Below are positions 2 to 31,343 of a stretch of 48,860 bases of DNA, in pieces. The position numbers were made by a program, and so were the translations under genes. Every line of letters begins with the position of its first letter. Within the stretch, counting starts at the first letter, position 1. The notes beneath the pieces were generated by a model. That model was not told where the DNA came from. It ran no database searches and worked only from the letters and a program-made list of their open reading frames with translations. Source of the DNA: Propionibacteriaceae bacterium (GTDB lineage: Bacteria > Actinomycetota > Actinomycetes > Propionibacteriales > Propionibacteriaceae); contig JAUMWV010000008.1 of assembly GCA_030529455.1 (NCBI GenBank), positions 1-48,860 of the forward strand. Direction: 5' to 3'.

Positions 2-268
2 CCCACACCGACACCGGACCTCACCCCCACCCCGACACCGAGTACCACGCCGACACCCAGCGCATCCTCGTCACCATCGGTGAAGCCGCCAGCGGCATCG
101 CCGGGCGAATCACCCGCTGGTAAGGGGAAAGGCGCGACCTCACCCGGGTCTGCTCCGGGGGTTCGTCCGCTTCCCCGAACAGGTGCCGCGGCATTCGGGC
201 TGGAAGGGCTGGCGCTTCTTGGATGCCTGTCCGCCGGGATGATCGTCATCTCGTCACGGCGGCGCTGA
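2..268 (+). CDS. C-terminal end of an LPXTG cell-wall-anchored surface protein (partial)
   Basis: Only the last 88 codons are inside the window; the frame is open to the left edge. The visible part is a low-complexity Pro/Thr/Ser stalk (PTPTP-type repeats), then a sortase sorting signal: LPRTG (bases 170-184), a hydrophobic segment of about 20 residues, and a positively charged RRR tail at the stop. Proteins with this ending are secreted, cut between Thr and Gly by sortase and linked to peptidoglycan; the stalk lifts an N-terminal domain off the wall. What that domain does cannot be told from this window. A GTG at base 80 could be taken for a start, but the stalk composition continues upstream in the same frame, so it is internal. 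Confidence 0.85.
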   Translation, partial: PTPTPDLTPTPTPSTTPTPSASSSPSVKPPAASPGESPAGKGKGATSPGSAPGVRPLPRTGAAAFGLEGLALLGCLSAGMIVISSRRR

Positions 269-27036: not shown

Positions 27037-27885
27037 CTACTGTTGCGGGCCGCCTTGGGGCCAGCCATCCGGGTTCGGCGGCTGATAGCCTCCCGGGGCA
27101 GCCGGGGGCTGGTAACCACCCGGGGCCGCCTGCGGGGGCTGGTAGCCGCCGGGCGCCTGGGGTTGCTGATATTGCGGCTGATAGGCGGGCTGTTGCGGGG
27201 CCGCCGTGGGAGCCTGCACCGGCGCCTGCGCCCGGTAGGCATTCGGGTCGGGCAGCTGATTCTGTGCCGGGGACGCCGGGGCGGGGCGCTGGCTGATCTC
27301 GCCGAAGCTCACCGAGGGGGCCTGCCGCACGATCGCGTCGTTGACCTCGAAATAGGTGGCCTTCTCGAACTTGGCCAGGCCAGCGATGATGTTGGTCGGC
27401 ACCGACTCGATCTTGGTGTTGTACTCGCGCACGTTGGCGTTGTAGAACCGGCGGGCGGCCGCGATGCGGTCCTCGGTTTCGGTCAGCTCACGCTGCAACT
27501 CCAGGAAGTTGGTATTCGACTTGAGGTCCGGGTAGGCCTCGACCGCGACGATGAGGCTGCGGACGGCACCAGACAGCTGCTGCTCGATGGCGGCACGCTG
27601 TTCGGACGCCGCACCGTGCGTCTGGCCCGCGAGGGACGCCGCCTGGTTGCGCAGCCGGGTGACCTCTTCGAGCGTGTTGCGCTCGTGGGCGGCATAGCCG
27701 CGCACCGTCTCGACCAGGTTGGGGATCAGCTCGTAACGGCGGTTCAGTTCGACATCGACCTGCCGCCAGGATTCCTGAATCAGGTTACGGCCACGGACCA
27801 TGCCGTTGTACATGCCGATGCCGACCACGCCGAGCAGTACGATCAGCACCAGCGGCACCAAAATGATGAGCAGCATACTACCCAT
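27037..27885 (-). CDS. LemA-family membrane protein with Pro/Gln-rich tail
   Basis: 282 residues. One N-terminal helix (LLIILVPLVLIVLLGVVGIG) is followed by the helical LemA domain (QESWRQVDVELNRRYELIPNLVETV; NVREYNTKIESVPTNIIAG). The last about 80 residues are low-complexity, with three PGGYQPP-type repeats. AAGGAG 5 bases before the ATG. The role of LemA proteins is unclear; the repetitive tail is unlike core LemA proteins and may mediate surface or multimer contacts. Confidence 0.85.
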   Translation of the reverse strand: MGSMLLIILVPLVLIVLLGVVGIGMYNGMVRGRNLIQESWRQVDVELNRRYELIPNLVETVRGYAAHERNTLEEVTRLRNQAASLAGQTHGAASEQRAAIEQQLSGAVRSLIVAVEAYPDLKSNTNFLELQRELTETEDRIAAARRFYNANVREYNTKIESVPTNIIAGLAKFEKATYFEVNDAIVRQAPSVSFGEISQRPAPASPAQNQLPDPNAYRAQAPVQAPTAAPQQPAYQPQYQQPQAPGGYQPPQAAPGGYQPPAAPGGYQPPNPDGWPQGGPQQ

Positions 27886-27946: not shown

Positions 27947-28489
27947 TCAGAGCCCCAGATCGGCGAGCCCCACCGCGTAGCGATACGGCAGTCCGGCCGC
28001 CTCGACGGCCTCCTGGGCTCCGGTCGCACGGTCCACGATCACGGCGACCCCGACCACCTGTGCCCCGGCGTCCCGGAGCGCCTCGACCGCGGTCAGCGCC
28101 GAACCTCCGGTGGTCGAGGTGTCCTCCACCACCAGCACCCGGCGCCCGGCCACCTCGGTCCCCTCGATGCGGCGCTGCAGCCCGTGGGACTTGGATTCCT
28201 TGCGCACGACGAAGGCGTCCAGCCGCTGCCCGGCGGCGGCCGCGGCGTGCAGCATCGCGGTCGCCACCGGGTCGGCGCCCAGGGTCAGGCCGCCGACCGC
28301 ATCGAACTCCCAATCGGCCACCAGCTCGCGCATGACGCGCCCGACCAGCGGGGAGGCGACCCCGTCGAGGGTGACACGGCGCATGTCGACGTAGTAGTCG
28401 GCCTCCTTCCCCGAGGCGAGACGCACCCGGCCATGCACGATGGCGAGGGCGCGGATCTGCTCGACGAGGGCAGTGCGGTCATCTGTCAT
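27947..28489 (-). CDS. pyrE: Orotate phosphoribosyltransferase
   Basis: 180 residues. PRPP-binding motif VLVVEDTSTTGGSA, plus ASGKEADYYVDMRR near the N-terminus and LDAFVVRKESKSHG, are all diagnostic of OPRTase. It converts orotate and PRPP to orotidine 5'-phosphate in pyrimidine synthesis. The start overlaps the upstream sortase-like gene stop (ATGA), so the two are coupled; other pyr genes are not in the window. Confidence 0.93.
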   Translation of the reverse strand: MTDDRTALVEQIRALAIVHGRVRLASGKEADYYVDMRRVTLDGVASPLVGRVMRELVADWEFDAVGGLTLGADPVATAMLHAAAAAGQRLDAFVVRKESKSHGLQRRIEGTEVAGRRVLVVEDTSTTGGSALTAVEALRDAGAQVVGVAVIVDRATGAQEAVEAAGLPYRYAVGLADLGL

Positions 28490-29130
28490 TTCTTCATTTC
28501 CTTCGAGGTCAGGACGCCGAAAGCGACCGAACGGTCGGGGGAGGACACCAGGTCCTGGGCTGTCGTGATGGTGAGGATCGGCTCCCAGGGGACGGCCTCA
28601 CCCTTGCCCGGCACCGGGTCGAGCACCCAGCCCGCGTCCTCGGACACCGTCAGCTCGGAGGCCGGAACCACGATGGAGTAGGTGTAGGTCGCGTCGCGGG
28701 TCTCGACGGTGACCGTGTCCCCCGCCTTGAGGCCGGTGAGGCCCGCGCAGGGAGCGCCGTGGGTGATCCGGTGGCAGGCGAGCGCGAAATTGCCGATCTG
28801 GCCCGGCTGGGCGGACTCTGGGTACCAGGCGAACCCGCGATCCAGCGCACCCATGCCCGAGGAGACCGGCCAGGCGTAGGAGGCGCTGAAAGCGGGGATG
28901 CGGATGATCGCGAAGGCCTCGCCGTCCCCGATCCACACCGGGGCACCGGCGGCGGACGAGACCCCACGCTCGGCCCAGTCCTGGCGCAGCGCCTCCAGCG
29001 CGCGGTCCGCCCGGTAGGTGGCGGTCACGTTGCTCAGCCCGTACTGGTAGCCGAGCCAGGCGGCCACGGTGGCAATCAGCGCTACCAGCACCCACGTCAC
29101 GGGGCGGCGGTTGGGTCGGCGCGTCGGCAT
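28486..29130 (-). CDS. Class E sortase homologue lacking the catalytic cysteine
   Basis: 214 residues. N-terminal signal-anchor helix (residues 11-27). The beta-barrel follows with YPESAQPGQIGNFALACHR (His120 at the catalytic His place). The segment normally reading TLTTC-H-P is TITTA-Q-D (Ala191), so the nucleophilic Cys is replaced by Ala; Arg200 in SSPDRSVAFGVL matches the conserved Arg. No frame disruption is evident: the frame continues smoothly to a normal C-terminus. Unless another residue substitutes (Cys119 sits beside His120), it cannot do standard transpeptidation. The ATG is 7 bases after TATGAA (leaderless). Stop overlaps pyrE. Confidence 0.85.
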   Translation of the reverse strand: MPTRRPNRRPVTWVLVALIATVAAWLGYQYGLSNVTATYRADRALEALRQDWAERGVSSAAGAPVWIGDGEAFAIIRIPAFSASYAWPVSSGMGALDRGFAWYPESAQPGQIGNFALACHRITHGAPCAGLTGLKAGDTVTVETRDATYTYSIVVPASELTVSEDAGWVLDPVPGKGEAVPWEPILTITTAQDLVSSPDRSVAFGVLTSKEMKK

Positions 29131-29170: not shown

Positions 29171-30304
29171 TTACAGCGAGAAGTCCACAACGGCGCGGCC
29201 GCCGACCTCACCGCGTTCGAGCGCCTCGTAGGCGTGCCCCGCCTGCTCCAGCGGGACGCGCAGCGTCACGACGTCAAAGTAGCGGATCATCCCCTTGGCG
29301 GCCATCGCGATGACCTGGGGCAGGTCGCAGCGGGTGTGCGCCCCGTAGGAACCGATGATGCGGATCGAACGGCGGACCGTCTGATTGATCGGCACCTCGG
29401 CGCTCTGCGCCCCGGCGGCGAGCCCGACCTGCACCATGCGCCCGCCGTCGCCGACGAAGGTCAGCGCCTGGGTGAAGGTGCGGGGCAGGCCCAGCGCCTC
29501 GATGGCGACGTTGACCATGCGCCCGCCCGTGATGTCGGCGATCGCCGCCTGGGCGTCCTGCGTGGCGGAGTTGACCGCGTGGGAGGCACCGAGCGCCAGC
29601 GCCGTCTCCAGTTTCTCGTCCTGGATGTCGACCGCGATGAGCGGGTCGGCGCCGAACTCCTTGGCTATCTGGATGATGTTCTGGCCAACACCGCCGACGC
29701 CGATGACCGCGACGGATTCGCCGTGCCTCAGATCGGCCGCGCGCCGGACCGCGCCGTAGGCGGTCATCGCGGCGCAACCCAGGATCGATCCGGCCACCGG
29801 GTCGATCTCGGACGGCAGTACCGCGACGGCCGTGGAGGGAATGACGCAGTATTCGGCCAGCCCGGCCATGGAGTACTGGGCGATCACCTCGCCGTCGGCG
29901 GAGGTCAGCCTGCTGGTGCCGTCGAACAGCTGCCCCCTGAGCCGGTTGAGGGTGAAGAACGGGCCGCACAGGTCGTCACGCCCGGCGGCACAGTCGGGGC
30001 AGGAGCCGCACGGCATGAGGAAGGCGCCCGCCACGCGGTCGCCCACCCGGAAAGTGTAGGACTCGTTGCCCGGGCCGATCTCGACGATCTCACCCGACAC
30101 CTCGTGGCCGAGCACGGCCGGGGTCGGGAACGCGATAGCGCCGTTGATGACGTGCAGGTCCGAGTGGCACAGGCCACAGGCCGTGGTGCGGATCAGGACC
30201 TCTCCGGTCTTGGGGCGCGGCACCGGGATGAGTTCAACTGACAACCCATCACCCGGCCGCCTCAGCACGGCAGCTTTCATGGTGGTTGGAAGAGTTGGAG
30301 CCAT
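29171..30304 (-). CDS. Zinc-dependent alcohol dehydrogenase (MDR family)
   Basis: 377 residues. Catalytic zinc Cys in GLCHSDLH and His-Glu in LGHEVSGEI; the structural zinc Cys set CGSCPDCAAGRDDLC is complete; NAD-binding GVGGVGQNIIQIAKE. It resembles glutathione-independent aryl/alkyl alcohol dehydrogenases of the AdhD/class III type. The start ATG 30304 is favoured over an in-frame ATG at 30280 because it lies 6 bases after TAGCGT (leaderless). No functional neighbours; substrate unknown. Confidence 0.85.
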   Translation of the reverse strand: MAPTLPTTMKAAVLRRPGDGLSVELIPVPRPKTGEVLIRTTACGLCHSDLHVINGAIAFPTPAVLGHEVSGEIVEIGPGNESYTFRVGDRVAGAFLMPCGSCPDCAAGRDDLCGPFFTLNRLRGQLFDGTSRLTSADGEVIAQYSMAGLAEYCVIPSTAVAVLPSEIDPVAGSILGCAAMTAYGAVRRAADLRHGESVAVIGVGGVGQNIIQIAKEFGADPLIAVDIQDEKLETALALGASHAVNSATQDAQAAIADITGGRMVNVAIEALGLPRTFTQALTFVGDGGRMVQVGLAAGAQSAEVPINQTVRRSIRIIGSYGAHTRCDLPQVIAMAAKGMIRYFDVVTLRVPLEQAGHAYEALERGEVGGRAVVDFSL

Positions 30305-30399: not shown

Positions 30400-31214
30400 T
30401 TAGCTGAACCAGAAGTGTTTGCCCACCAGCGCCGGGGAGCGCTGCGCGTCCGCCTCGCCAAACGGCGGCGCCCCCGCACGCCAGCCCACCAGCTCCTTGT
30501 GGTTGAGCAGCCGGTAGGGGAAGGCCGAGGCGGCGCACCGCCTCGCGATGGCCCGCACCGGCAGCGGCACCGAAGAGCCCGTGGCCACCAGGTTCCCGAA
30601 GCGCCGCCCCTTGAAAACCGCCGGTTCGGCGCCGAGGACGAGGTGGCGGAAGTGCGCCGCCAGACCCGCCAGGCAGCGCCTGGACCACGCGAAGGGGGCC
30701 GAATCGATGAGGTTCATGACGACCAGCCCGCCGGGACGCAGCACCCGCGCGACCTCAGCGAACCACTCCGCGGTGGCCAGCTCGGCGGGCACCCGGCCCC
30801 CGTCGAAGGCATCCACGACGACGCAGTCGGCGTAGGCGTCCCCCATCGCGGCCAGGCCAGCCAGGCCGTCGGTCTCGCGGATCTTGATGCCCGAGCGGCG
30901 GGCGAGCGGCAGCTTCCTGCGCACCTCCGCCACCAGCGCGGCGTCCGGCTCCAGCACGATCTGGGCGGTGTGCGGACGCTTCCACTCCACCCAGCGGGGC
31001 AGCGTCAGGCCCCCGCCTCCCACGTGCACGACCCTCACCCGCTCGGCGGCCGGGCGCTCCAGCAGCGTGCACTCCAACACCCCGGCGATGTGCTGCACGT
31101 ACTCGAAGGCCAGGCTATCCGGACGCTCGGGGTCCACCCAGATTGGGCCGTATCCCCCAGCTGCACCCGGAACGCCCCGGGGTGGGACGGGTCTGGCACG
31201 ACGTACTCGCTCAC
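30400..31214 (-). pseudogene. Spermidine-synthase-like methyltransferase with a frameshift
   Basis: The SAM-binding fold is intact (VVHVGGGGLTLPRW, ADCVVVDAFDGG, LRPGGLVVMN), and proteins of this group are cytosolic and about 270 residues long. The N-terminus (SEYVVPDPSHPGAFRVQLG...) is in a different frame from the rest (VDPERPDSLAFEYV...). The switch is near 31138-31142, where adding one base would restore the frame. The GTG at 31214 is 6 bases after TATCCT, supporting it as the true start of an originally leaderless gene. Either a real inactivating mutation or a sequencing error. Confidence 0.7.
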
Positions 31215-31343
31215 CCCGCGAGGATACGCCAGCCCGGAACCGGACGCGGCCAGCCAGCGGACCGCGAAGCCGAGGCCACCCCGAGGCGTGACGGTTTCCG
31301 CTACTCCGCACGCCCGGCCGCTGGCTAGGTTTACGATCGGGTG

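Follow-up and report, generated by a model that had tools for sequence, protein, structure and literature searches.

RESULTS

A class E sortase homolog with alanine at the nucleophile position

The gene analyzed here is carried by contig JAUMWV010000008.1 of a Propionibacteriaceae bacterium (GenBank assembly GCA_030529455.1; 1.95 Mb, 91 contigs, 85% complete). The window, by which we mean the whole stretch of DNA that was analyzed, is this entire contig of 48,860 nucleotides. Its minus strand contains an open reading frame (ORF) for a protein that resembles class E sortases and has alanine (Ala191) where these enzymes have their catalytic cysteine (Table 1). The protein begins with a basic stretch and a single membrane anchor, which a linker connects to the sortase domain.

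The query protein matched the Pfam sortase family PF04203 with 60.2 bits, against a curated cutoff of 26.6 (E = 2e-16). It scored 139.3 bits with the NCBIfam class E model NF033747, which is below the curated cutoff of 160 and still the best among the four sortase models matched. The best solved relative by sequence was SrtE1 (5cuw; phmmer E = 6e-16), for which passages of PMC5148588 assign catalysis to Cys320, His251, and Arg329. His120 and Arg200 of the query fall on the catalytic His and Arg of 5cuw, Tyr103 aligns with the class E tyrosine, and the query's TTA falls on TTC, leaving the protein with no nucleophilic cysteine. An earlier, sequence-only reading of this locus had described the Cys-to-Ala change in a clean frame, the retained His and Arg, and a normal C terminus, all of which we confirmed: the ORF has an ATG start, no internal stop, a TGA stop at its end, and a G+C content at third codon positions of 0.91 (0.86 to 0.92 in its neighbors). 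That reading had also pointed out QD in place of HP in the TITTA-QD segment. We rejected QD as a sign of degeneracy, since TTC-QD and TTC-ED are common in intact relatives from the host family and order; the Ala191 part of the claim stands.

The alanine codon, GCC, is at least two substitutions away from either cysteine codon, and a single miscall therefore does not explain it. The thioacyl intermediate of sortases requires the nucleophilic cysteine. With alanine in its place, no such intermediate can form, and the query is thus not a working sortase by known chemistry.

An AlphaFold2 model built from a seven-row alignment was weak, with a mean predicted local distance difference test (pLDDT) score of 56.6 and values of 73 to 85 in the best 10-residue blocks. 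When this weak model was searched with Foldseek, 12 of the 14 top matches were named sortase E, and the other two were SrtF of Corynebacterium diphtheriae. The matches included 9j0t, which was solved as a Cys-to-Ala mutant; such a change therefore leaves that fold intact.

Table 1. Features of the window (positions count from the first nucleotide of the contig)
Feature	Positions	Strand	Basis
Class E pseudo-sortase ORF, 214 aa	28486..29130	minus	Profile, sequence and fold matches
N-terminal membrane anchor, about residues 11-31	29038..29100	minus	Limits by eye; best 19-residue hydropathy 1.76
Tyr103, aligned with class E Tyr (SrtE1 Tyr229)	28822..28824	minus	phmmer alignment, codon
Cys119, query-specific; Gly in relatives	28774..28776	minus	Codon, family alignment
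His120, catalytic His position kept; within Cys119-His120-Arg121	28771..28773	minus	Alignment to 5cuw
Cys128, query-specific; mostly Phe in relatives	28747..28749	minus	Codon, family alignment
Ala191 (GCC) at nucleophilic Cys site, in TITTA	28558..28560	minus	Alignment to 5cuw, codon
Arg200, catalytic Arg position kept	28531..28533	minus	Alignment to 5cuw
ATGA, 4-base overlap of sortase stop with pyrE start	28486..28489	minus	Sequence
pyrE (presumed), conserved downstream neighbor	27947..28489	minus	Pfam: phosphoribosyltransferase only
LemA-family gene, conserved neighbor	27037..27885	minus	Pfam
Spermidine-synthase-like gene (presumed), conserved upstream neighbor	30400..31311	minus	No Pfam match at 1e-5
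5'-truncated ORF ending in LPRTG sorting signal, possible sortase substrate	2..268	plus	Tail VRPLPRTG-hydrophobic stretch-SSRRR

Recurrent loss of catalytic residues in the Propionibacteriaceae

Sortase matches were present in 166 of 199 genomes of the host family, Propionibacteriaceae, and absent from 33. The best relatives of the query are 48 to 49% identical over the full length and 52% over the domain alone. We fetched 140 of the 149 non-self matches listed, leaving out the last nine and weaker, unlisted matches. Half of these copies retained His, Cys, and Arg; the other 70, found in 70 of the 131 genomes, lacked His, Cys, or both, a share that is not unbiased because the copies were chosen by similarity to a dead query. 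Cys was lost in 61 copies (in 14 of the 28 sampled genera), His in 60, and Arg in 6. The sequence-only reading had advised looking for the same alanine in orthologs, and alanine is indeed among the replacements (A, S, E, H, N, G, D, Q, or R); His gave way to Y, R, N, L, Q, P, T, or V. Variability at positions 120 and 191 among degenerate copies arises partly by construction, since the set is defined by H, C, or R, and a conditional count is fairer: given loss of Cys, His was also gone in 51 of 61 copies and Arg in 6. The idea of a lone artifact or miscall was rejected, given the two or more substitutions required and the similar losses in many other genomes.

The commonest degenerate state combines His-to-Tyr with Cys-to-Ser (YSR; 13 of 140 copies). 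It turns up at two separate positions in the sortase tree, one holding L092, L095, and L099 (g15) and the other copies of g17, g28, g13, and g27. Convergence by single-base steps or a shared constraint are both possible explanations. In g36 and g4, residue 191 differs between related species.

Outside the family, H, C, and R were kept at all 56 loci that could be aligned (of 57, representing 53 distinct places), these being the best-scoring matches rather than a random sample. At 16 outside loci (15 distinct), pyrE was the next gene downstream, with an identity of at least 70%. Because every aligned outside locus retains the triad, the intact, pyrE-linked class E form is probably ancestral.

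In the sortase tree, most degenerate rows fall in one clade, and dead clades span several genera. This single clade may reflect long-branch attraction of fast-evolving dead copies, and we therefore counted losses on a tree of neighboring genes (110 rows: the query, 93 of the 140 loci, and 16 outgroup rows), in which 30 rows are less than half filled and a few branches are long. With regain barred, Cys was lost 16 times when all branches were used, 14 times when branches below 80 were collapsed, and 9 times when those below 95 were collapsed; the query by itself is one of the nine. Both Cys and His have been lost recurrently in the host family.

Purifying selection and residue conservation in degenerate copies

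We determined the ratio of nonsynonymous to synonymous substitution rates (dN/dS) for pairs that were hand-picked from relatives of the query, with each row used once. Fifteen close pairs in which both members lacked the Cys gave values of 0.18 to 0.41 (median, 0.30; each P < 1e-5 versus dN = dS), and 15 intact pairs gave values of 0.13 to 0.58 (median, 0.25). Purifying selection acts on the dead relatives.

Residue conservation was compared between 70 degenerate copies, with the query left out, and 58 intact copies, with 12 rows that were of another subgroup or unlinked left out. Gly110, Gly113, Tyr151, Val173, and Pro174 were present in 100% of the degenerate copies and Arg200 in 91%, while position 103 was Tyr in 93% of degenerate versus 88% of intact copies. 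A hydrophobic anchor scored above threshold in 69 of 70 degenerate and 51 of 58 intact copies, the latter count perhaps lowered by misplaced start codons. The linker residue Trp52 was found in 100% of intact and 56% of degenerate copies. The sequence-only proposal of a maintained pseudo-sortase thus holds for the group, with its recurrent loss, its kept anchor and fold residues, and a dN/dS near 0.3, and it extends far beyond one gene; that the query copy itself is under selection is something we infer.

Gains of cysteine pairs

We counted cysteines beyond the anchor, bearing in mind that rows within a clade are not independent. The nucleophile was the sole Cys in 55 of the 58 intact copies and in all 12 intact rows left out above; two of the remaining three had Cys at 168, 175, and 191, and the third (L102) had Cys at 121 and 191. 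Nine copies had lost His and kept Cys. Eight of them (L088, L096, L112, L115, L119, L120, L132, and L141) carried an additional Cys at 121, adjacent to the site of the lost His, and the ninth (L137) had a lone His-to-Asn change and no Cys121. L102, with His present alongside Cys121 and Cys191, looks like an intermediate.

Among the 62 copies without the nucleophile, query included, 37 were free of Cys, 14 had exactly Cys52 and Cys145, and 2 had this pair plus one more. Cys52 replaces the invariant linker Trp52 in 17 copies and is joined by Cys145 in 16 of them, the exception being L188. (The 16 copies are L136, L168, L171, L174 to L176, L178, L181, L184, L189 to L192, L195, L196, and L205.) Four g22 copies had Cys at 49 or 52, plus 72. 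These paired gains suggest, as far as sequence can tell, disulfides, one kind of which (121-191) would lock the old nucleophile.

The query has a pair of its own, Cys119 and Cys128, both found in the query only. Position 119 is Gly in 98% of the 58 intact and 99% of the 70 degenerate relatives. Cys119 had been offered as an alternative nucleophile, which is not supported by the conserved glycine or by the pairing with Cys128; a Cys119-Cys128 disulfide would fit the alignment better.

Gene neighborhood and linkage to pyrE

The query sits between a gene that we take to be spermidine-synthase-like and a pyrE-LemA segment, as do members of the pyrE-linked class E lineage; we presume the name pyrE as well. 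Further neighbors with Pfam support in the window encode a VTT-domain (DedA-like) protein, a SpoU methylase (TrmH-like), and ClpB, and the order spermidine-synthase-like gene, sortase, pyrE, LemA, DedA, TrmH recurs in the host family. A Pfam-supported zinc alcohol-dehydrogenase gene (29171-30304, minus strand) lies between the spermidine-synthase-like gene and the query sortase, and a weak match to it occurred at just 1 of the 140 relatives' loci.

The overlap between the sortase stop and pyrE that had been described is real, and the suggestion that pyrE is an odd partner was not borne out, as the linkage is conserved in the host family and also outside it. Within 600 bases downstream, pyrE was found for 47 of 70 degenerate and 37 of 70 intact family copies. 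For 65 of 70 degenerate and 51 of 70 intact copies, one or more of three neighbors (pyrE, LemA, and the upstream gene) were in place. Stop/start overlaps occurred in 31 of 70 degenerate versus 22 of 58 intact copies and did not separate the groups. Some genomes carry an intact and a degenerate copy together (L076 and L146 in G065; L129 and L169 in G157), and the copy that holds the place beside pyrE differs.

Other sortases and sorting signals

As the sequence-only reading had recommended, we searched the query genome for a normal sortase and found none even at E = 10 in an assembly that is 85% complete; an active sortase may be encoded in the portion that the assembly lacks. The LPXTG signal of the putative substrate that had been placed at the left edge of the window is there, in a 5'-open ORF. 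Elsewhere in the genome, three places scored over the TIGR01167 cutoff (C32, C23, and C39), C23 also being detected by PF00746, and those of C32 and C23 read as KRPLPRTG tails. Two LPRTG signals (the window start and C23) sit at contig edges. When we asked whether a dead sortase goes together with missing LPXTG signals, TIGR01167 at E = 0.1 also matched in 8 of 14 control genomes, and matches per genome had overlapping ranges in 11 dead-copy and 13 intact-copy genomes.

By hand count, 57 of the 70 genomes with a degenerate copy had at least two PF04203 matches, rising to 60 after a looser search, all counted as profile matches only. Of the 13 genomes checked individually, 10 had the degenerate copy as the sole PF04203 match over cutoff. 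Seven of these are near complete: G069, G072, and G077 (one contig each), G090, G092, and G108 (99 to 100% complete), and G164 (99%, with 7% contamination). The other three are G218 (76%), G219 (81%), and G124 (86%; a lone His-to-Asn copy). The looser search gave a second match over cutoff in G027, G003, and G100, which were dropped as single-sortase genomes.

DISCUSSION

Repeated inactivation with preservation of the protein suggests a second, noncatalytic job. We hold with high confidence that the group is dead and selected. For the query, we favor, with moderate confidence, a selected, catalytically dead, membrane-anchored class E pseudo-sortase that acts by noncovalent binding in the cell envelope. 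Selection in relatives, the retained anchor, fold, Tyr, and Arg, and the new Cys pairs together suggest that the protein binds a partner or serves as a scaffold at the membrane. The query would descend from an active, pyrE-linked class E sortase that, with Ala191 in place of Cys, would no longer form the thioacyl intermediate, and selection for noncovalent binding or scaffolding would have retained it. A putative partner, perhaps a C-terminal peptide of the sorting type or some other component of the envelope, would be held uncut on the retained cleft or surface. More tentatively, the old sortase cleft could be the binding site.

Along the same lines, the host family might repeatedly have turned the ancestral sortase into a disulfide-locked, noncatalytic envelope receptor, a scenario we put forward with some doubt. 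Cys121-Cys191 would trap the old nucleophile, with L102 as an apparent intermediate, and elsewhere Cys52-Cys145 would fasten the N-terminal linker onto the domain. In this scenario the active ancestor would already have performed the second job, explaining why repeated loss of the chemistry would have been tolerated.

Several points weigh against the binding interpretation. The structural model is weak, and our analysis of sequences identified no partner or ligand. The query's genus is represented by one genome, with its nearest relatives only 48 to 49% identical, and the evidence for selection comes from relatives. Nine of the 62 copies without the nucleophile have one or three cysteines, which simple pairing does not fit. 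His, at the cleft, has been freely replaced in other family members. Tyr103 may be conserved for folding rather than binding, because mutants of Tyr229 in SrtE1 were unstable according to the passages available from PMC5148588. The number of losses also depends on the method: under plain parsimony, the neighbor-gene tree requires at least 13 changes of the intact/degenerate label, of which starred branches alone force 5, and the sortase tree requires 8 (13 for His).

Alternatively, the dead sortase could be an accessory resembling the pilus protein SipA (PMC4049620), one that binds to sorting signals and either helps or holds back an active sortase encoded elsewhere in the genome. The frequent second PF04203 match in degenerate-copy genomes and the LPXTG signals of the query genome, including those at C23 and the window's left edge, are in keeping with this explanation. 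However, no second sortase was found in the 85%-complete query genome, and the seven near-complete genomes, three of them single contigs, have the degenerate copy as their only match over cutoff; its function is therefore not always assistance to another sortase. We regard the accessory explanation as unlikely for these reasons, though worth keeping in view.

The frame might instead be kept only through translational coupling to pyrE, the protein having no function. The ATGA overlap and the frequent proximity of pyrE fit this proposal, which would explain an open frame but not amino acid conservation at a dN/dS of about 0.3. Moreover, 23 of 70 degenerate copies have no pyrE in the 600 bases downstream of them, a few of the loci in question stopping close to a contig edge, and pairs drawn from the copies without a linked pyrE gave dN/dS values of 0.21 (L142/L151), 0.20 (L192/L205), and 0.41 (L175/L176). 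Coupling alone is thus quite improbable. We give equally little credence to a recently dead gene drifting to loss. The query's long terminal branch in the sortase tree (1.4) and the family genomes with no match are what drift would produce, but the frame, anchor, and coding composition of the query are intact, dead relatives are under purifying selection, and dead clades extend across several genera.

It is slightly harder still to believe that the protein remains an enzyme with another nucleophile, either Cys119 in the query or Ser191 in YSR copies. The frequency of YSR and its presence in g15, outside the main dead clade, speak for this option. Against it, Cys119 occurs only in the query, paired with Cys128, and lies beside His120 on the same predicted strand, so that its side chain would probably face the other way. 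Tyr is not a usual general base, and the variation of residue 191 between related species in g36 and g4 speaks against a chemical role there. Finally, despite the fragmented source genome, a sequencing or assembly error has a negligible chance of being the explanation, given the number of substitutions needed and similar losses in many genomes, including single-contig G069, G072, and G077.

The loss of catalytic residues in these proteins matters for annotation. By definition a sortase is taken to be an enzyme, and profile annotation names PF04203 proteins sortases. In some closed genomes the only "sortase" is a dead copy, and predicting surface anchoring from such a copy would be a mistake. 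Losses that occurred in parallel in related species, alongside intact sisters, amount to a natural experiment on the function that survives without chemistry, and active class E sortases may share that function as a hidden second role.

Comparison with known systems

A phrase-based search of the open-access literature found no report of natural pseudo-sortases and no occurrence of "pseudosortase" or "pseudo-sortase." The phrase "inactive sortase" occurs in literature on Lactococcus lactis pili. The passages available from PMC13251363 contain nothing on missing catalytic residues.

The best sequence and fold matches of the query are the class E sortases SrtE1 of Streptomyces coelicolor (5cuw), SrtE of Streptomyces avermitilis (5go5), and SrtE of Thermobifida fusca (9iok), with which it shares the anchor, the sortase domain, the His and Arg, and the class E Tyr. 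Unlike these enzymes, it has Ala at the nucleophilic Cys and scores below the class E model cutoff. SipA, a pilus assembly factor of Streptococcus pyogenes, is the closest precedent: according to PMC4049620, it has a peptidase fold at the membrane surface with the catalytic residues replaced and is proposed to act by binding. SipA differs in having a signal peptidase fold rather than a sortase fold and in lying within a pilus gene cluster. The same nucleophile substitution has been engineered in T. fusca SrtE (C222A; 9j0t) and in S. pyogenes SrtA (C208A with an LPATS peptide; 7s4o), with the fold kept in both and, according to the entry title, the peptide bound in 7s4o. Whereas those two are laboratory mutants, the query is a natural protein.
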